From the NCBI GenBank assembly GCA_029228645.1, contig JAPTHR010000005.1:62020-126019 (forward strand): a stretch of 64,000 nt of DNA, read 5' to 3'. Shown in pieces: positions 55,042 to 62,469 of the stretch. The notes below the pieces were generated by a model. It did not search any database. It saw only the letters and a program-made list of their open reading frames with translations, and was not told the origin of the DNA. The translations under genes and the position numbers were made by a program. Source of the DNA: Gammaproteobacteria bacterium Milos-ODIII6. Its GTDB lineage: Bacteria > Pseudomonadota > Gammaproteobacteria > Chromatiales > Chromatiaceae. Each line of letters opens with the position of its first letter. Positions within the stretch are counted from its first letter, which is position 1.

Positions 55042-56481
55042 ATGCAATACGATTTGATAAGCCTGCAACCGGTTATGCCGGAAATCTTCATGCTGGGCGC
55101 GGCCTGCCTGGTGCTCGTCGTCGACCTCTTTCTCACCCAGCGCACGCGGATGTGGACCTATGGTCTGACCCTCGCCACCCTGCTGGGAGCCATTGCACTC
55201 ACCGCGTGGGCCGCAGGCCCGGAACGGCAGGTCTTGTTCGATGGCAGCTACGTGCGCGATCCGGTATCCGACGTTCTCAAGATTGCACTCCTGACGATCA
55301 CTGTCTTCGTCATGGTGTACGCCCGGGACTACCTGCTGCAGCGCGGAATCTACCGCGGCGAGTTCTACACCCTGGCGCTGTTCGCCTCACTCGGCATGAT
55401 GATCATGGCGTCCGCGGGCAACTTCCTCACGGTCTACCTGGGTCTGGAACTGCTGGCGCTGAGCATGTACGCCCTGGTGGCCTTCGACCGTGATTCGGTG
55501 AAAGGCTCCGAGGCGGCGATGAAGTACTTCGTGCTGGGCGCGTTGGCTTCGGGTCTGCTGCTGTACGGGATGTCGATGTTGTACGGTGCCACCGGCACCC
55601 TCAATCTCGCCGCCATGTCGGAGGTGATCGCCGCCGGCAAGGCCGAGGAAACGGTGCTGGTATTCGGACTTGTGTTCGTAGTCATCGGGATCGCATTCAA
55701 GTTCGGTGCCGTCCCCTTCCACATGTGGGTGCCCGACGTGTATGACGGCGCCCCCACCGCCGTGACCCTGTTCCTCGGAAGTGCCCCCAAGATCGCCGCA
55801 TTCGCACTCGCGATTCGTCTTCTGGCGGATGGGGCAGGGGGCCTGTCCGCGCACTGGTCGGACATGCTGATCATTCTGGCGGTAGCATCGCTGGCGATCG
55901 GCAACATCGTTGCGATCGCGCAGACCAACGTCAAGCGCATGCTCGCCTACTCCACGATTTCGCATGTCGGCTTCATCTTCCTCGGCTTCGTCGCGGCCGA
56001 CGGCCGCGGCTACGGGGCCGCCTTGTTTTACACCGTGGTCTACGCACTCACGGCGGCAGGCGGTTTCGGTCTGCTTACGATCCTCAGTCGCAAGGGGGTC
56101 GATGCAGAAACCCTGGACGACCTCAAGGGCCTCAATGATCGTAGTCCCTGGCTGGCGGGCATGATGCTCCTTATCCTGTTCTCCATGGCCGGGGTGCCGC
56201 CCACGGTCGGGTTCTTCGCCAAGCTCTTCGTGCTTGATGCCGTGGTCCAGGTGGATATGGTCTGGTTGGCGATCGTTGCAGTCTTCTTCTCTATCATCGG
56301 CGCCTACTATTACCTGCGTGCGATCAAGATGATGTACTTCGACAAACCGATAGATGATCACCCGATCGTCGCATCGGTCGACAGTCGTGTTGCTATGTCC
56401 GTGAACGGCCTGGCCGTGCTGCTCCTGGGTATCTTCCCGACGGCTTTGTTACAGGCCTGTCGAACAGCCTTCGGCGGGTGA
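55042..56481 (+). CDS. nuoN: NADH-quinone oxidoreductase subunit N
   Basis: Third antiporter-like subunit, ending the 14-gene operon. The 479-residue protein starts MQYDLISLQPVMPEIFMLG, has FLTVYLGLELLALSMYALVA, KFGAVPFHMWVPDVYDGAPT and IAQTNVKRMLAYSTISHVGF. A GTG at 55015 overlapping the nuoM stop (GTGA) is an alternative start adding nine residues. The next feature is tRNA-fMet, 67 bp on. Confidence 0.96.
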   Translation: MQYDLISLQPVMPEIFMLGAACLVLVVDLFLTQRTRMWTYGLTLATLLGAIALTAWAAGPERQVLFDGSYVRDPVSDVLKIALLTITVFVMVYARDYLLQRGIYRGEFYTLALFASLGMMIMASAGNFLTVYLGLELLALSMYALVAFDRDSVKGSEAAMKYFVLGALASGLLLYGMSMLYGATGTLNLAAMSEVIAAGKAEETVLVFGLVFVVIGIAFKFGAVPFHMWVPDVYDGAPTAVTLFLGSAPKIAAFALAIRLLADGAGGLSAHWSDMLIILAVASLAIGNIVAIAQTNVKRMLAYSTISHVGFIFLGFVAADGRGYGAALFYTVVYALTAAGGFGLLTILSRKGVDAETLDDLKGLNDRSPWLAGMMLLILFSMAGVPPTVGFFAKLFVLDAVVQVDMVWLAIVAVFFSIIGAYYYLRAIKMMYFDKPIDDHPIVASVDSRVAMSVNGLAVLLLGIFPTALLQACRTAFGG

Positions 56482-56548
56482 TTTGAACAGTTGGCCGGGA
56501 AAGGGGCTTGTAAAATCAGCCGGCCTTCGGTATAGTCTGCCCTCCAGA

Positions 56549-56625
<77 letters not shown>

Positions 56626-56629
56626 AATA

Positions 56630-56657
56630 AAAAAAGCCGCTGAAAAGCGGCTTTTTT
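56630..56657 (+). terminator. Rho-independent terminator after tRNA-fMet
   Basis: AAAAAAGCCGC and GCGGCTTTTTT form a 5-bp GC core extended by A-T pairs around TGAAAA, with a T6 run at the end. It starts a few bases past the CCA end. Confidence 0.9.
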
Positions 56658-56676
56658 ATTGCCAACAACAAGCCAA

Positions 56677-56691
56677 ATTTGAACCTACGAC
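56677..56691 (-). repeat. Inverted copy of the tRNA-fMet T-arm
   Basis: ATTTGAACCTACGAC is the exact reverse complement of the T-arm segment GTCGTAGGTTCAAAT of the neighbouring tRNA-fMet. It lies about 50 bp past the tRNA. Possibly a relic of recombination at the tRNA. Confidence 0.7.
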
Positions 56692-56750
56692 GTTTCAAAA
56701 CAGGCAGGTTCACAAGCGCCGTCAGGCGCGCAGCTCGAGCGCAGCGAGTC

Positions 56751-56769
56751 AATCCTGCCCCCTCTACCA
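56751..56769 (+). repeat. Direct copy of the tRNA-fMet 3' end
   Basis: AATCCTGCCCCCTCTACCA repeats the last 19 bases of the tRNA (56607-56625) with one mismatch, 144 bp downstream; GGCAGGTTCA at 56703-56712 looks like the matching 5' half of the T arm, split by about 38 bp. This is the pattern left when an integrase uses a tRNA 3' end, but no integrase is seen. Confidence 0.7.
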
Positions 56770-56826
56770 AAATTTCCAAAAGCCAATTCGAAACAAAGAC
56801 TTGGGATTTCTTGTTGCCCGAAAGTC

Positions 56827-56840
56827 GATTTGAACCTACG
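56827..56840 (-). repeat. Second inverted copy of the tRNA-fMet T-arm
   Basis: GATTTGAACCTACG is the exact reverse complement of CGTAGGTTCAAATC in the tRNA T arm, about 150 bp after the first inverted copy. Together the three fragments fill the roughly 400-bp stretch before arsR, in which no gene is supported. Confidence 0.65.
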
Positions 56841-56997
56841 TTGGAAATCGTCAAATATCTTCGCTTGCTCCGCTTTGTCTGGATCGGCAAACGAACCGGT
56901 TGTATCTGCCTTCTCAGCTAATGCCAGCCGAGTTGGCAACTCGGGAGTAGGGGAGTAAGCGCAGATCTCCCACCTCCGCTTTTTCCGATATATTCGA

Positions 56998-57030
56998 TTG
57001 ACGGTATATGGCGTTAACGTTATATTCCGT
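56998..57030 (+). promoter_or_regulatory. arsR promoter with overlapping palindromic operator
   Basis: TTGACG (56998-57003) and TATATT (57021-57026) are 17 bp apart, a good sigma70 pair. The 30 bases 57001-57030 form a dyad with 12 of 15 pairs matching (ends ACGG/CCGT, centre GTTAAC), covering spacer and -10. The pair ends 8 bp before the arsR ATG, so transcription should begin at or just before it. Repression by ArsR binding here is inferred. Confidence 0.7.
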
Positions 57031-57033
57031 CAG

Positions 57034-57387
57034 ATGGATATATTGGCATCAAACCTGTTCTCGGCCCTGTCCCACGAAACCCGCCTGCGCTGCGTCATGC
57101 TGCTGATGCAACACGATGAGCTGTGCGTTTGCGAACTAACCCATGCGATTGGCGCGGCGCAGCCGCACGTCTCGCGCCACCTCGCGCAGCTGCGCAAACT
57201 CGGACTGCTCGTTGATCGTCGCGAAGGGCTGTGGATTCACTACAGGATCAACCCTGCTTTGCCGCAGTGGGTGGCCGACTTGCTGCAAAACACGCTAAGT
57301 GGGGTGCAGGTCCTTCCCCCCTTCAAGGACGATGCCGATGTCCTCGGGCAAATGCCCAATCGGCCCGGCGCTCCTAGGTGCGCCTGA
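57034..57387 (+). CDS. arsR: ArsR-family arsenical-resistance repressor
   Basis: A 117-residue winged-helix repressor of the ArsR/SmtB family. The metal-binding ELCVCELTHAIG (Cys31, Cys33) at the recognition-helix region is the As(III) site of E. coli-type ArsR, and QPHVSRHLAQLRKLGLL is the DNA-reading helix. The third cysteine of the E. coli triad is absent (Thr36 at the matching place). ATG 57034 is used; an upstream TTG overlaps the promoter. No Shine-Dalgarno exists, consistent with a leaderless mRNA. It overlaps the acr3 remnant by 50 bp. Confidence 0.88.
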   Translation: MDILASNLFSALSHETRLRCVMLLMQHDELCVCELTHAIGAAQPHVSRHLAQLRKLGLLVDRREGLWIHYRINPALPQWVADLLQNTLSGVQVLPPFKDDADVLGQMPNRPGAPRCA

Positions 57388-57568
57388 AAGGGTGCTCCTG
57401 TGCATCGTCACGGGGATCGCACTGGGACATTGGCTGTCAGCTCCTTTTCAGCAACTTGGCCAAATGGAAGTGGCGCAGGTCAACCTGCCGGTCCTGCTGT
57501 CGGTGGTAAAGATCGTCAACAACATCAAAGGCTGGTACGAGGCCGGCCTGCTTACCCGAGGGGAATAA
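57338..57568 (+). pseudogene. Internally deleted remnant of an Acr3-type arsenite transporter
   Basis: A 76-residue frame whose first part, VLLCIVTGIALGHWL and QQLGQMEVAQVNLPV, matches the N terminus of Acr3 arsenite permeases. The rest, LLSVVKIVNNIKGWYEAG, looks like a C-terminal end of that family. About 270 codons of the transporter core appear to be missing, with the frame kept. It cannot form the ten-helix permease. It begins inside arsR and its end (GAGGGGAATAACG) supplies the ribosome site for the next gene. The Acr3 C-terminal match is from memory and less certain than the N-terminal one. Confidence 0.65.
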
Positions 57569-57570
57569 CG

Positions 57571-58494
57571 ATGAAAACAACACTCATGTCGCTGTTGATG
57601 GCTATTGGCCTGTCCATCGCGTCGCTGGCGCAGGCCAATCCGGATTTCCTCGTCGATGCCGACTGGCTGGCCGAACATATCGAGGATGACAATCTGGTGG
57701 TGCTGGAGGTGCGCTACCACCCGCATCGTCATCATACGGTTGGGCATATTCCCGGAGCGATCCAGGTGAAGCGTTTCAAGGACCTCGCGGACAACCAGTC
57801 GCTTACCGTGACGCGCTTTCCGTCACGTGAGCAATTCCAGCAGACCTTGCGTGACTGGGGCGTGAGCATGGATTCCACCCTGGTGATCTATGACGACACT
57901 CGCACGGTAACCAGTGCGCGCCTGTGGGTGTTGCTCAAGCTGTATGGCTTCCCGATGGACCAGGTAAAGGTACTCAACGGTGGCACCGTCGCCTGGTCGG
58001 CCTTTGAAGAAATCACCCAGGAGCCTACCGAGGTTCGGGAGCCGAGCACTATCGAACTTGCCCCCGCCGATCACTCGATGTTCGTCGAGTTCCCGGAAAT
58101 CTATGATCACGTCGCCGCAGGCAAGACTTCGGATGTCGTGCTGATCGACGCGCGCCCGACCGATCGCTATGCAGGTGGTAGCCACCATGGCGTGGCCGAA
58201 GGTCATATTCCGGGTGCGATCAATATCATCAGCATGGATGGCACCGATGGTGAGTCACAGACCTGGCGTTCAGACGAGTTCCTGGCCGAGATGTACAAGT
58301 CCGTACCCAAGGAAAAGGCCGTCTACGTGTACTGCGATGACGGTTTCCGCATGAGTCTTGCCTACCAGCAACTGACCCACCTGGGTTACCAGGATGTGCG
58401 CCTGTACAACGGTGGCTGGTCGCATTGGGGCAACTGGCTGGACCTGCCGACCGTCACTGGCGACAAGCCCTTTGCCGGAGATTTCGAGCTGTGA
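57571..58494 (+). CDS. Periplasmic rhodanese (sulfurtransferase), two-domain
   Basis: A 307-residue thiosulfate sulfurtransferase-like protein with a signal peptide (LMAIGLSIASLAQA, cleaved about residue 22). The first rhodanese domain (about 25-150) has Asp109 in VIYDDTRTV where the catalytic cysteine would be, so is inactive. The second (about 170-290) keeps Cys255 in VYVYCDDGFRMS. This is the usual TST arrangement: sulfane sulfur transfer between thiols or to acceptors in the periplasm. Its GTGA stop overlaps the next gene. Its presence behind arsR suggests sulfur chemistry linked to arsenic stress; the substrate is unknown. Confidence 0.9.
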   Translation: MKTTLMSLLMAIGLSIASLAQANPDFLVDADWLAEHIEDDNLVVLEVRYHPHRHHTVGHIPGAIQVKRFKDLADNQSLTVTRFPSREQFQQTLRDWGVSMDSTLVIYDDTRTVTSARLWVLLKLYGFPMDQVKVLNGGTVAWSAFEEITQEPTEVREPSTIELAPADHSMFVEFPEIYDHVAAGKTSDVVLIDARPTDRYAGGSHHGVAEGHIPGAINIISMDGTDGESQTWRSDEFLAEMYKSVPKEKAVYVYCDDGFRMSLAYQQLTHLGYQDVRLYNGGWSHWGNWLDLPTVTGDKPFAGDFEL

Positions 58495-59414
58495 GCCGCT
58501 GGATATCCAGCCTGTTGCTGAGTTTTTATTCGCTCAGTGGCTGGGCCGTTGATCTCAAGGTCGAACCGGTGGTGGACAATGTCTACGCCATTGTCGGTGA
58601 GATCGGCCCGCGCACACCCGAGAATCACGGCCTCAACAACACCCTTGGGTTCGTGGTGACCGAAGAGGGTGTGGTGCTGGTCGGTTCCGGCGCAACGCCG
58701 CTTGGCGCGAAGCGGGTGGAGGACGCAGTTGCCAGCGTCACCGACAAGCCGATCCGCCTGCTGGTGAATATCGGGGTGCAGGATCACCACTGGATGGGTA
58801 ATAGCTACTTTGCTGACAAGGGCATCCCTATCAAAGCGCTCGCCCGTACCGTTGACAGCCAGCGGCAACAGGCGGAGGCACACATCGGCCGTCTGACCGC
58901 TCAGGTGGGGGATGAGGCAAAAACCGTCGTCCCCACTCACGCGACAGACATCGTGGATGCGGACAGCCAGTCCTTCGAATTCGGTGGCGTGACATTCGAG
59001 TTGCGGTGGCCGGGTGACGGTCATTTCGTCGGCGATGCCGTGCTGTGGTTGCCGCAGACACGCACCCTGTTCACCGGGGACTTCGTGTTCCTCGACCGCC
59101 TGCTGGGCATTCATCCCACCACGCCGGTTGCGAAGTGGCAGCAATCGTTTCACCAGATCGAGAAGCTGGCCCCTACGCACCTGGTGCCTGGCCACGGCCA
59201 TCCTGCGGACATCGCAAAGGCAAAAGCCGAGACGGGTGACTACCTCGACTGGTTGGTCGCAGGTGTCAGCGAGGCACTGGAGGACTGGCAGGAACTCGGT
59301 GACACCGTCGAGCAGATGGGGGACGCACCGGCATTCGCGCATCTGCAGTTCTTCGATGGCTGGCACAAGCGCAATGTCCACCAGACCTATATGCAGTTGG
59401 AGGCCGCGAGGTAG
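58491..59414 (+). CDS. Metallo-beta-lactamase-fold secreted hydrolase with altered motif
   Basis: A 307-residue protein of the MBL fold with an N-terminal signal peptide (SSLLLSFYSLSGWAV). The first zinc motif is not HxHxDH: it reads NIGVQDHHWMGN (93-104), keeping only the last histidine(s). The other ligands His178 (GDGHFVGD), Asp197 (GDFVFLD) and His235 (LVPGHGHPAD) are intact, so a one- or two-metal site is possible. Some SoxH-like, quinoprotein-associated MBL proteins show similar GGQDH patterns from memory. It is a GTG start coupled to the rhodanese gene. Confidence 0.85.
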   Translation: MSRWISSLLLSFYSLSGWAVDLKVEPVVDNVYAIVGEIGPRTPENHGLNNTLGFVVTEEGVVLVGSGATPLGAKRVEDAVASVTDKPIRLLVNIGVQDHHWMGNSYFADKGIPIKALARTVDSQRQQAEAHIGRLTAQVGDEAKTVVPTHATDIVDADSQSFEFGGVTFELRWPGDGHFVGDAVLWLPQTRTLFTGDFVFLDRLLGIHPTTPVAKWQQSFHQIEKLAPTHLVPGHGHPADIAKAKAETGDYLDWLVAGVSEALEDWQELGDTVEQMGDAPAFAHLQFFDGWHKRNVHQTYMQLEAAR

Positions 59415-59419
59415 CTACC

Positions 59420-59656
59420 ATGGATGTGATTCTCAAATCCACCATCACCTGTCCGATGTGCGGCCATGTGTCCGAAGAGACCATGCCAACCGACGCCTGC
59501 CAGTGGTACTACGAATGCAAGGGATGCGGGGAGCTGCTTACGCCACTGAAGGGCGACTGCTGCGTTTTCTGTTCCTTCGGCACGGTGCCGTGTCCCCCCA
59601 TCCAGCTGGATGGCAAAAGTTCCTGCTGCAACCCGGATTCGGATTGTTGTGGCTGA
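59420..59656 (+). CDS. GDCCVxC-domain small cysteine protein
   Basis: A 78-residue cysteine-rich protein with GDCCVFCSFGTVPCPPIQ (46-62), the signature of the GDCCVxC family, members of which are sometimes selenoproteins. All positions here are ordinary codons (TGC/TGT), so it is a cysteine form. It also has a zinc-ribbon-like CPMC/CKGC pair (Cys11, Cys14, Cys33, Cys36) and a CC-CC tail. The family tends to occur with mercury, arsenic and redox genes; function is undefined. It follows 5 bp after the MBL gene. Confidence 0.88.
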   Translation: MDVILKSTITCPMCGHVSEETMPTDACQWYYECKGCGELLTPLKGDCCVFCSFGTVPCPPIQLDGKSSCCNPDSDCCG

Positions 59657-59677
59657 CTTGTTTGAAAGAGGTTTGAA

Positions 59678-59917
59678 ATGAAAAACATCAAAGTGCTCGG
59701 TTCGGGCTGCAAGAACTGCGAAACCACGGCCAGGCTTATTCAAATTGCCGCTGAGCAGGCCGGTGTCGAAATCGAACTGGAAAAAGTCACTGACATGGCG
59801 CAGATCATGGGCTTTGGGGTGATGTCGACACCCGGTGTGGTGGTCGATGGAAAGGTCGTACACGCCGGTGGTCTTCCGGGGCCGGACCAGGTGCGCAACT
59901 GGGTCACGCAGGACTGA
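59678..59917 (+). CDS. Mini-thioredoxin (redox-active disulfide protein)
   Basis: A 79-residue thioredoxin-fold protein with a CxxC at Cys11-Cys14 (GSGCKNCETT) and the conserved cis-Pro turn in MGFGVMSTPGVVVDGKVV. Such small redox-active disulfide proteins accompany permeases of the ArsP/DUF318 family. It starts 21 bp after the GDCCVxC gene with AGAGG ahead of the ATG. Redox partner and target are unknown. Confidence 0.9.
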   Translation: MKNIKVLGSGCKNCETTARLIQIAAEQAGVEIELEKVTDMAQIMGFGVMSTPGVVVDGKVVHAGGLPGPDQVRNWVTQD

Positions 59918-60035
59918 CGCCGGGGTTCATGAGCATGAATACACACCTTCATGACGTGCTGAGCCTTGCAGATCAGGAATGCCTGATAAGGAACTGGCAA
60001 ATGAGAGCCGTGTATCGCTAAACGAGAGTCACAGC

Positions 60036-60989
60036 ATGTTTGAGTGGTTTGCCAACCAGGTCGTGTATGCCGGAATGGGTCTGTCACCCGATTCAGATCT
60101 GGGTGCAGCGGTGCATTTCTTTGTCATGGATGTCGCAAAGATCTTCGCCTTGCTGGTGATCGTGATTTACCTCATGGGACTGCTGCGCGCCCTGTTGTCG
60201 CCGGAGAGAGTCCGGGATTTTGTGCGTGGTCGCCCTGACTGGCAGGCACGCGGCTTTGCGGTGACCTTGGGAGCTGCCACGCCTTTCTGTTCCTGTTCCT
60301 CGGTGCCCTTGTTTATTGGATTTGTCGAGGCCGGCATCCCGCTGGGTGTGACTTTCTCGTTCCTGATTGCCAGCCCGATGATCAACGAGGTCGCGGCGGT
60401 GATCCTGGTCGGCATACTGGGTTGGAAGCTGGCTGCCCTTTATGTGCTGGCTGGATTGTTGGTGGCCTGGTTCGGTGGGCTTGCCATGCAGGCATTCAAA
60501 CCGGAACGCTGGGTTGAGGGCTACGTCTGGAAAATCCAGATGGGACAGGCCAATCTGCCCGAGCCGGACAAATCCTTTGCCGGACGACATCGCTACGCTG
60601 TCGCGGAGGTCCGGGAGATTGTCGGGCGCATCTGGAAATGGGTGCTGCTGGGCATAGGGGTCGGGGCGCTGTTCCACGGCTTTGTCCCGGAGGAGTGGGT
60701 CGGTGAAAACCTGGGTGGTGATGCCTGGTACACCGTGCCCGTTGCGGTGATCATGGGCATTCCGCTGTATTCCAATGCCACCGGGGTAATCCCGGTCGCC
60801 GAGGCGATGCTGAGCAAGGGTGTCGCAGTGGGAACCACCCTGGCCCTGATGATGAGCGTGGCCGCCCTGTCGCTGCCGGAGATGCTTATCCTGCGTAAAG
60901 TCATCAAGTGGCAGGCGCTGGCCCTGTTTGCCGGCGTGCTCGCTGTAGCGTTCACCCTGGTCGGTTGGGCATTCAACGCGCTTACCTGA
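60036..60989 (+). CDS. Permease of the ArsP/DUF318 family
   Basis: A 317-residue membrane protein with about 8 helices and the family motif TPFCSCSSVPLFIGF (Cys85, Cys87). Family members export trivalent organoarsenicals (ArsP), and others have been tied to different substrates. A second conserved block is GIPLYSNATGVIPVAEAML. The start MFEWFANQVVYAGMG fits family N termini and has GAGAG upstream; ATG 59979 lies in the loop of a small hairpin (ATCAGG-AATG-CCTGAT) and is less likely. It closes the operon-like run that starts with arsR. Confidence 0.87.
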   Translation: MFEWFANQVVYAGMGLSPDSDLGAAVHFFVMDVAKIFALLVIVIYLMGLLRALLSPERVRDFVRGRPDWQARGFAVTLGAATPFCSCSSVPLFIGFVEAGIPLGVTFSFLIASPMINEVAAVILVGILGWKLAALYVLAGLLVAWFGGLAMQAFKPERWVEGYVWKIQMGQANLPEPDKSFAGRHRYAVAEVREIVGRIWKWVLLGIGVGALFHGFVPEEWVGENLGGDAWYTVPVAVIMGIPLYSNATGVIPVAEAMLSKGVAVGTTLALMMSVAALSLPEMLILRKVIKWQALALFAGVLAVAFTLVGWAFNALT

Positions 60990-61105
60990 GTCTCGCGAGC
61001 TTTTGCAGAGGTGGCGCAGGAATTGACCCTCGCCGGTGCAGGCGCTGACGATGTGATTACCCGGCGTCGGCAGTCTGAACCGCCGCGGACGGTCTTTGCG
61101 CCGGG

Positions 61106-61954
61106 TCAGATATACAGGATACCGTCACGCCGGTTGTGCAGGGGGTCCTGATCCTCGGTAAGACCCCGGATGCGCGCTTCAACCCGGATGGCGCTCATCA
61201 GCTCATTGTCGATCACCTCAGGGTACATCGAGAAAAAGCGGGCCACCTCTTTGGCATGAGGGCGGGACGCCTGTTCCATGCGCAGGCGATCCCCCTGTTC
61301 GAGTCCGTGCAGCATCAGCAAGCGGGTTGATTGGCGGGTGATGTAGCGTTGGCACAGCGCGCGATCCTCCTCGTTTTCCCAGTCTTCACGGAGCAGCAAA
61401 GCAGGAAAAGTATCCGGCTCGCTCGGTCGGCGCCGGAACCAGCGGGCCTTGGGTTTGGAGCCGGCCCGCTCTGCAACCAGCCTTTCGAGCCGATAATTGA
61501 CCGGCGCAAGGTTGCCTGAGCGCTCATCCTCGGTGGATTCGATCGGCATCACGGCGGCGGGTAGCGCTGTCCATTCCGGGTGAACCGGGAAGGTGCTCAT
61601 CTGCTCGGCCTTGGTGCAGCTGAATATCAATGCCAGCGGGGATTCGTCCATCGGGTCGAGCAGCCAGTATTCGAACTCGTCGGCGGCCGTGAATGGCAGC
61701 GTCGCATCGGCAAGGTATCCGGTCAGTTCCAGTATCCGCTCATCGATCGCGTGCCCTTCGTGAGTGCCTTGTTCGCTGAGGCGCGACAGTTCGCTGTGCC
61801 GAATATAGGCGACCCGCCGGAAGTTGGCCGCCTGCAGGAAATGGATTTCCCAGCTTTTGCCATCCATGCTGACAGCCCTCGCACGCTCCGACTCCGCGAT
61901 TTGCACCAGTCCGGAATAGGGTGGCATGAGACGCTGGGAATATGATCTGACCAT
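61106..61954 (-). CDS. Uncharacterised cytoplasmic protein
   Basis: A 282-residue protein (MVRSYSQRLMPPYSGLVQIA and onward) with no signal peptide, membrane span or motif I recognise. It has a Pro-rich mid-section and a basic patch SKPKARWFRRR; the C-terminal quarter is helical (LMLHGLEQGDRLRMEQ). The start is set at MVRSYSQ with GGAG about 11 bases upstream; the frame is open 63 bases further. It is oriented against the ars operon. Base use is like neighbouring genes, so it is probably native. Confidence 0.65.
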   Translation of the reverse strand: MVRSYSQRLMPPYSGLVQIAESERARAVSMDGKSWEIHFLQAANFRRVAYIRHSELSRLSEQGTHEGHAIDERILELTGYLADATLPFTAADEFEYWLLDPMDESPLALIFSCTKAEQMSTFPVHPEWTALPAAVMPIESTEDERSGNLAPVNYRLERLVAERAGSKPKARWFRRRPSEPDTFPALLLREDWENEEDRALCQRYITRQSTRLLMLHGLEQGDRLRMEQASRPHAKEVARFFSMYPEVIDNELMSAIRVEARIRGLTEDQDPLHNRRDGILYI

Positions 61955-62133
61955 GGTGATTGCCTGCTCCTGATTCCATTGGCGAAAACGACATCGCTCG
62001 CAGTCGATTCGCAGCAACGGATCCGGTAAGTGCTTAACACGAATAATGATGTGGACATTGTATTCGCCGAGACGCTGCGCCGGCAGTGGAATCAGTTAAT
62101 ATCCGCGCACTAGCTGTCGAGGACACCGAATCA

Positions 62134-62469
62134 ATGCCAAAGTACATTTTTATCTATCTCGGGGGAGAAACGCCGGCGAGCCCGGGAGAGGCGAAGCAAC
62201 ACTTCATGGACTACGAGAACTGGCTGAGATCCCTGGGGAGCGCGGTGGTAAGCCCGGCGATTCCTTTCAAGGACACGCACACGGTGCAGCCCGACGGCAA
62301 AATAGAGCCGGGTACCACCACGGGGATGTCCGGCATGAGTATCATCCAGATGGCAACGATGGAGAAGGCCTTGGAGGCGGCAAAAGCCTGCCCCTTCCTC
62401 GCAATTGGCGGCACCCTCGAGGTGTCGGAAATGCTCGAGGTGGCGCCGCCGACCAACAAGCCGAACTGA
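62134..62469 (+). CDS. YCII-related (YciI-like) domain protein
   Basis: A 111-residue protein resembling the YCII-related family of small, dimeric ferredoxin-like enzymes and putative stress proteins: MPKYIFIYLGGETPASPGEA at the start, then YENWLRSLGSAVVSPAIPF and AKACPFLAIGGTLEVSEML. The start at MPKYIF is chosen over longer frames. Divergent from the 282-residue gene. Function in this family is generally unproven. Confidence 0.8.
   Translation: MPKYIFIYLGGETPASPGEAKQHFMDYENWLRSLGSAVVSPAIPFKDTHTVQPDGKIEPGTTTGMSGMSIIQMATMEKALEAAKACPFLAIGGTLEVSEMLEVAPPTNKPN

Follow-up and report, generated by a model that had tools for sequence, protein, structure and literature searches.

Persulfide operons of the BigR/SqrR type combine an ArsR-family repressor with a persulfide dioxygenase and a rhodanese. 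A run of genes at 57034-60989 of the window analyzed here, a 64,000-nucleotide stretch of the genome of Gammaproteobacteria bacterium Milos-ODIII6, resembles these operons in joining an ArsR-family repressor to genes for a rhodanese and a metallo-beta-lactamase (MBL) fold protein, but differs from them in that its ArsR is not BigR and carries the arsenic-type CVC motif, and in that HxHxDH is missing from its MBL protein, which has a signal-like start. Arsenic resistance (ars) operons with ArsR, Acr3, GAPDH-ArsJ, ArsM, and ArsP, as described in the available part of a review (PMC6205960), show the same regulator, pumps, and gapdh-arsJ pair as fuller copies of the present cluster, whereas the present cluster includes a rhodanese and an MBL gene, and arsC, acr3, and arsJ are gone from its window copy; neither "rhodanese" nor "lactamase" occurs in the text of that review. 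In pyrroloquinoline quinone (PQQ) dehydrogenase clusters (P. putida PP_2666, PP_2677, and PP_2678), a non-cytoplasmic rhodanese likewise accompanies a SoxH-like MBL protein, and the PQQ-type operon of M. extorquens AM1 also contains a thioredoxin-like gene; for the rhodanese/SoxH-like/SoxYZ set a maturation or redox role has been suggested, and mutants had a minimal phenotype under the conditions used (PMC12997753, available sections). Unlike those clusters, the window run has ArsR and ArsP, and its proteins fall far under the TIGR04558, TIGR04559, and TIGR03865 cut-offs. Moreover, the sulfur oxidizer Thioalkalivibrio jannaschii ALM2 has a rhodanese-related gene beside its arx/ars genes that is strongly up-regulated at 5 mM As(III), but its rhodanese operon is described with a glycosyl transferase, and the gene is compared here by description only (PMC6620896, available part). 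No recognized description of a rhodanese-MBL pair in ars operons was found among the literature matches listed, which is no proof of absence, and the operon bearing this pair appears to be a new form of ars operon.

The run in the window is best explained as an ars cluster of a sulfur-oxidizing gammaproteobacterium that has been pruned and has retained a putative ArsR-controlled module. Its order (arsR, an acr3 remnant, rhodanese, MBL-fold, GDCCVxC, mini-thioredoxin, and ArsP-type permease genes), as given in an earlier reading of the letters alone (the sequence-only reading), was confirmed by reading frames and hidden Markov model family assignments, and the gap sizes given there (2, 5, 21, and about 118 bp) were correct, with the GTG start of the MBL gene sitting within the rhodanese stop codon (GTGA overlap). 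The features are as follows.

57034..57387, plus strand: arsR, ArsR/SmtB repressor (reading frame; HTH_5/ArsR profiles)
57398..57568, plus strand: acr3 remnant with an in-frame internal deletion of about 0.8 kb (profile and DNA matches)
57571..58494, plus strand: exported two-domain rhodanese, active loop C255-DDGF-R260 (frame, profiles, signal rule, model)
58491..59414, plus strand: MBL-fold protein, SoxH-like, with a signal-like start and a remodeled metal site NxGxQDHxW(L/M)GN (profiles, model, alignments)
59420..59656, plus strand: GDCCVxC domain protein (NF041374)
59678..59917, plus strand: mini-thioredoxin, MTH895/ArsE family (TIGR00412)
59899..59988, plus strand: remnant of the start of a dual-specificity phosphatase gene, uninterrupted in locus L070 (sequence match)
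60036..60989 (longest frame from 59979), plus strand: ArsP_1 permease (frame, PF03773 profile)
56998..57026, plus strand: sigma-70-type promoter TTGACG-17-TATATT, directly 5' of arsR (pattern search)
57021..57042, no strand: operator-like dyad TATATTC-N8-GAATATA over the -10 element and the arsR start (alignment, by eye)

A fuller copy of the cluster was found on contig C15 of the same genome (locus L021), in the order arsR, arsC, acr3, rhodanese, MBL, GDCCVxC, mini-thioredoxin, dual-specificity phosphatase gene (split over two frames), gapdh, arsJ, and arsP. The same order was found in a symbiont of Ctena orbiculata (L070), in which ACR3 (380.8 bits, cut-off 282.8), ArsJ (603.1, 400), and the ArsJ-associated GAPDH (559.7, 450) exceeded their family cut-offs, with an ArsC-like protein (50.8 bits) below its cut-off of 174.3. 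Relative to these two loci, arsC, gapdh, and arsJ are missing from the window copy, acr3 is without its interior, and only a small part of the phosphatase gene is left. A search of positions 56001-62200 for functional arsenic pump and reductase partners gave no match to arsC, gapdh, or arsJ, and acr3 only as the remnant. Residues 30-61 of Acr3 match 57398-57493 and are followed in frame by the last 24 or so codons, with an overlap of 7 bp (57486-57492) between the two DNA matches, and the only acr3 gene over the cut-off in this genome is the C15 copy; that the remnant encodes a small functional protein was considered and dropped, as no positive evidence was obtained. The phosphatase remnant covers 30 amino acids (40% identity, E-value 0.002), and the DNA match to L070 extends to 59969, inside that gene.

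The six retained genes of the window are intact, and the ratio of nonsynonymous to synonymous distances (dN/dS) was 0.038-0.144 in 11 of 12 comparisons with L070 or L021 (2 of 18 ratios overall, ArsR between window and L021 and rhodanese between L021 and L070, were saturated), which indicates constraint over the long term rather than selection after the losses, because dS exceeds 1 in nine of the 11 ratios and the branches extend back before the deletions. By synonymous distance, L021 and L070 are the nearest pair for ArsR, GDCCVxC, mini-thioredoxin, and ArsP, but the window and L070 are nearest for the rhodanese and MBL genes, and these differing nearest pairs suggest exchange between copies.

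A CVC motif in the DNA-binding helix of ArsR marks an As(III)-type sensor. The window ArsR (NF007528, 104.9 bits, cut-off 97) carries ELCVCE, so the repressor that the sequence-only reading had placed at the head of the run is of the As(III) type, and CVC was present in all 23 ArsR proteins of related loci (22 by pattern, one as RCVCD). Its identification as BigR was rejected (41.1 bits against a cut-off of 155). For the upstream region, one promoter-like pattern was found against 1.7 expected in shuffled sequence, which is weak taken alone; alignment revealed that TTGA and TATATTC are identical 5' of arsR in L021, L070, and L071, and that the dyad is also kept before arsR in these three related loci, the window copy having one mismatch (by eye).

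The sequence-only reading had called for a search of other genomes for the same gene set, and the set recurs, so it is more than a chance arrangement. Named genomes were scanned with the rhodanese alignment and the best 80 of 155 relatives were kept, ars context being scored as a BLAST match over a set score to Acr3, ArsJ, ArsP, ArsM, or ArsR references, and not to ArsB, ArsH, or others. Acr3, ArsJ, ArsP, or ArsM was encoded in the fetched stretch of 41 of the 80 rhodanese loci (42 counting ArsR), and in 26 of the 43 loci whose flanks measured 5 kb or more on each side. In a second set of 26 genomes, 19 of 27 rhodanese loci lay within 10 kb of acr3, arsJ, or ArsP_1 genes against 0.43 expected under a chance model of uniform gene placement that ignores contig ends, clustering, and kinship, and 11 of the 16 over-cut-off acr3 genes were located within 10 kb of a rhodanese; this test used 35 of 38 ArsP_1 rows (three second gene fragments omitted) and the 16 of 24 acr3 and 18 of 22 arsJ rows over cut-off. 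The two collections share contigs and are thus not independent samples, and relatedness inflates the p-values.

In 17 of the 80 loci, an MBL gene was the immediate neighbor of the rhodanese in the same orientation. By the sequence-only reading, the module idea would fail if such pairs were never found with ArsR or permease genes elsewhere; 10 of these 17 adjacent pairs lie beside ars genes, so the idea is not refuted in this way. On the rhodanese tree, a quick tree with 32 of 80 inner branches open, ars context changed at least 13 times among the 62 of 83 rows scored (shuffled mean 15.0; 26 of 200 shuffles reached 13), and MBL adjacency changed 12 times among 67 of 83 rows (shuffled mean 16.6; 2 of 200 shuffles), the remaining rows being too short-flanked; MBL adjacency therefore follows descent more. 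Among 93 relatives, five genomes had both the rhodanese and the close MBL clade (E < 1e-100; 9 of 52 genomes with any match), four had the MBL only, and 10 the rhodanese only (one-sided p 0.005), in a count in which the G003 rhodanese is truncated at a contig end and the G006 MBL reaches one. In contrast, the loci of seven MBL paralogues with 35-39% identity (L022, L033-L038) gave no match to the wider reference set except for a weak ArsM-type methyltransferase match of 62.8 bits in L035. An eighth paralogue (L031, G083:C2; 41% identity) adjoins ArsP, mini-thioredoxin, and ArsC-like genes and has a short rhodanese match only, and L031 is possibly a cluster that lost its rhodanese.

Furthermore, a bare module of rhodanese, ArsP, and mini-thioredoxin genes on one strand was identified in 21 of the 80 loci, eight of them with neither Acr3 nor ArsJ in the stretch (L095, L104, and L138 having less than 3.5 kb on one side), and six of these eight also had the MBL gene (L074, L112, L117, L118, L128, and L138; in L112 it lies 4 kb away on the opposite strand). 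This bare recurrent module nearly equals the gene set surviving in the window copy and may represent a minimal gene set. MBL genes were not associated with Acr3 (7 of 19 against 10 of 24, p 0.74, uncorrected). Also, a plasmid of Sulfuricella denitrificans carries an arsR-rhodanese-arsC-acr3-GDCCVxC-permease-arsM-thioredoxin cluster near a molybdopterin oxidoreductase gene and moaA.

Rhodanese carriers are associated with sulfur oxidation. In a class-wide sample of 369 genomes, a soxB match was detected in all 13 rhodanese carriers compared with 151 of 369 overall, and a dsrA match in 12 of the 13 (that in G136 being a fragment under the cut-off) compared with 117 of 369 (one-sided p about 7e-6 each, without kinship correction); the genome of the window has both soxB and dsrA. 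In addition, 42 of the 80 rhodanese records were titled with a sulfur-oxidizer genus or Chromatiaceae (e.g., Thiodiazotropha, Sedimenticola, Thiocapsa, Thiohalocapsa, and Thioglobus), and most of the others were gammaproteobacterial, apart from a few records from Alphaproteobacteria and elsewhere. Two Thiocapsa loci have an aioA gene less than 5 kb from the rhodanese (L079, 10979-13450, 1235.6 bits, cut-off 359; L077, 98% identical). No AioA-type arsenite oxidase exceeded the cut-off in the genome of the window (best 86 bits; ArxA was not searched), and with aioA near the rhodanese in only these two of 80 loci, a reading of the run as part of an arsenite oxidase cluster was rejected.

The rhodanese of the window scored 128.8 bits against the Rhodanese profile (cut-off 22.2) in two domain stretches, and its closest solved relatives by sequence are rhodaneses and thiosulfate and mercaptopyruvate sulfurtransferases (predicted local distance difference test, pLDDT, of the model 81). 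The rhodaneses form one family, with the signatures LEVRY[HY]PH and the loop C[HD]DGFR, the latter read as CHDGFR in 75 of 80 and CDDGFR in five of 80 sequences, which is the CX4R sulfurtransferase form. Export was assessed with a home-made rule and not SignalP (a basic, hydrophobic start with a core threshold of 1.8), by which an anchor was located in 66 of 80 rhodaneses (64 passing fully) and 16 of 24 MBL proteins (all 16 passing). The sequence-only reading had placed both proteins outside the cytoplasm; for the rhodanese the signal-like start is clear (hydrophobic core 2.54), and for the MBL protein less so (1.71, just under the threshold). An Acr2/Cdc25-type arsenate reductase or phosphatase was rejected, the loop being CX4R in 80 of 80 sequences and not the HCX5R of that group; that the rhodanese is a periplasmic arsenate reductase is hardly credible, since even though reductases of rhodanese fold exist (PMC10135228, available part), the fuller clusters already carry an ArsC-like gene.

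The MBL protein scored 26.8 bits against Lactamase_B (cut-off 22.7), and its model (pLDDT 94) had as best structural matches listed 8d2z (Z 32.5), the chlorothalonil dehalogenase 6uxu (Z 32.3), and CphA carbapenemases (Z about 26.8). HxHxDH was absent from all 24 MBL sequences and QDHxW present in all, 22 having the full NxGxQDHxW(L/M)GN; L148 and a truncated frame keep QDHxW with one letter changed. Alignment with the canonical, HxHxDH-bearing paralogues of the same genome (L151, L152) revealed that the first two histidines are replaced by G95 and Q97 and the aspartate by H99, while H178, D197, and H235 are invariant in 21 MBL sequences, implying that the metal site may be single or unusual. 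A persulfide dioxygenase was rejected owing to the missing HxHxDH; no dioxygenase appeared among the structural matches listed (best 50 per search), which alone excludes nothing. With 150.7 bits against a cut-off of 300 for TIGR04558 (quinoprotein relay SoxH-related metallohydrolase), the protein is a relative and not a member of that family. Other altered metal motifs (ENGQGH, NTNSQPH, and similar) were present in the paralogues L150, L153, L154, L156, and L157, which suggests a wider SoxH-like lineage with remodeled metal sites.

The permease belongs to ArsP_1 (PF03773, 214.6 bits, cut-off 32.3) and is a candidate methylarsenite exporter; the name SaoE (119.8 bits, NF040736 cut-off 325) was rejected, as was SO_0444, likewise under its cut-off. 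The GDCCVxC protein (NF041374, 103.2 bits, cut-off 40) and the mini-thioredoxin (TIGR00412, 90.8 bits, cut-off 62) were both assigned to their families, and only unrelated work was found on GDCCVxC and SaoE among the literature matches listed. An ArsM over the cut-off is encoded in the genome, which also has a third, short ArsP_1 match (G000:C3:74779-75105, a 127-residue frame). Near ArsP and mini-thioredoxin genes, a protein of about 110 residues (L026, 2668-2997) has homologues in 13 of 80 loci; the L026 protein itself matched nothing in NCBIfam (E 1e-5) or Pfam (E 0.001).

The best explanation for these observations, held tentatively and with less than even confidence, is that the window carries a pruned ars copy keeping an ArsR-controlled module in which the rhodanese exchanges sulfane sulfur with exported arsenicals and the MBL protein acts downstream. 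As suggested by its motif, ArsR would sense trivalent arsenicals and release the operon. ArsP, aided by the two small cysteine proteins, would then export trivalent arsenicals, probably methylarsenite produced by the ArsM of the genome, and in the fuller copies Acr3 would export arsenite. In the periplasm, the rhodanese may load sulfane sulfur from thiosulfate or polysulfide on Cys255 and hand it to the exported arsenical, giving a pentavalent thio-arsenical that would re-enter or bind thiols less; alternatively, the reaction may run in reverse, with thioarsenate as a thiosulfate analogue. In the last and weakest step, the substrate of the MBL protein might be either the thio-product or the persulfide of the rhodanese, and sulfide and arsenate would perhaps be freed. 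Such an arrangement may show how sulfur oxidizers handle arsenic and sulfur together outside the cytoplasm.

Several observations weigh against this explanation, in addition to the dN/dS branches that reach back before the deletions. An MBL gene was found in only 24 of the 80 rhodanese loci and is missing from the Sulfuricella denitrificans plasmid cluster, and its association with ArsP (11 of 19 against 6 of 24, one-sided p 0.03) is weak and uncorrected over four tests. None of the ars genes sought was present in 17 of the 43 full-flank rhodanese loci (5 kb or more per side) or beside seven of the 17 adjacent pairs (two of them, L142 and L148, with one short flank), so the pair is not arsenic-specific as the sequence-only reading would have it. 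The hydrolysis proposed there is likewise unsure, because HxHxDH is absent from the MBL protein. No recognized report of an arsenical as a rhodanese substrate was obtained among the literature matches listed, and ARh2, the sister strain of ALM2 that oxidizes arsenite with no known oxidase, has no induced rhodanese operon beside its ars genes (PMC6620896, available part).

The loci without ars genes favor a rival explanation, in which the pair performs ordinary periplasmic sulfur work (mobilizing thiosulfate or polysulfide, or repairing thiols and disulfides), acts on no arsenical, and is merely co-induced with arsenic defense because trivalent arsenicals attack the same thiols. L072 and L073 of Candidatus Thioglobus, among other loci, carry the pair without the ars genes sought, some rhodaneses have Sulf_transp (4 of 80) or TauE (6 of 80) proteins as neighbors, and a comparable rhodanese, SoxH-like MBL, and SoxYZ set lies beside PQQ dehydrogenases with adjacent cysteines (PMC12997753, available sections). 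However, the linkage to arsenic genes is far over chance, ars context switches along the rhodanese tree nearly as frequently as under shuffled labels, which argues against one inherited accident, and the window copy retains the pair and ArsP under an arsenic-type ArsR, so that this rival is a serious possibility but on balance doubtful. Because the pair is found away from arsenic genes as well, it probably serves primarily to handle sulfane sulfur and was recruited into ars operons more than once. On the simplest view that unites these data, a sulfane-sulfur module was enlisted for arsenic defense, and a role of arsenicals as sulfur acceptors or donors would be its most specific and most tentative part.

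A more specific form of the preferred explanation, sulfane-sulfur exchange with exported arsenicals, is a periplasmic arsenic-sulfur pathway, in which the rhodanese would thiolate arsenite or methylarsenite delivered by Acr3 or ArsP and the MBL protein would convert the product to arsenate or methylarsenate plus sulfide. This pathway is unlikely as a whole; if true, it would amount to arsenite oxidation with sulfane sulfur as the oxidant and without a molybdenum arsenite oxidase. Thioalkalivibrio thiocyanoxidans oxidizes arsenite in thiosulfate medium without a known oxidase, from which the authors of that study conclude that there must be an unknown enzyme; their own candidate is a Soe-like enzyme, a further point against the preferred explanation (PMC6620896, available part). 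The rhodanese and MBL proteins recurrent in ars operons of sulfur oxidizers are further concrete candidates for unexplained arsenite oxidation or thioarsenate resistance.

Thioarsenates occur in sulfidic water, and a third explanation is that the rhodanese strips sulfur from them and the pumps handle the arsenite formed. As(III) is more toxic than thioarsenates, and dethiolation would free it outside the inner membrane, which makes this quite improbable, even though many carriers are sulfur oxidizers, monothioarsenate resembles thiosulfate (an argument in the available part of PMC6620896), and thioarsenate resistance mechanisms should exist, with reduction plus efflux unverified so far (PMC6205960, available part). 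Finally, the window copy might be a nonfunctional relic in decay and the C15 copy the active one, as the three deletions, the acr3 and phosphatase remnants, and the dN/dS ratios not datable to after the deletions would allow. Against this, the six retained genes are open, dN/dS is low where computable, and the promoter and dyad are conserved, and a relic is accordingly very doubtful.

Other neighbors of the rhodanese were also detected. In the 17 full-flank loci with none of the ars genes sought, no further conserved partner was seen, and four had a porin, TauE, Sulf_transp, or single-domain rhodanese neighbor. Sulf_transp proteins (YeeE-type, PF04143, checked in L102) are encoded 5' of the rhodanese in L102, L103, and L109, where no ars gene was found. 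A Porin_1-type protein (L079, 7539-8840, and homologues) is encoded near the rhodanese, in most cases immediately 5' of it, in nine of 80 loci, and a 1028-residue P-type cation ATPase fused to a DsbB domain (L121, 12267-15353), with relatives in three more of the 80 loci (L098, L115, and L129), was identified near it. Just 5' of the ars run in the window, the last 19 bases (56607-56625) of a tRNA-Met gene (56549-56625) recur with one mismatch at 56751-56769, 144 bp downstream (two matches against 0.02 expected), which suggests an attachment-site-like trace or a tRNA remnant.

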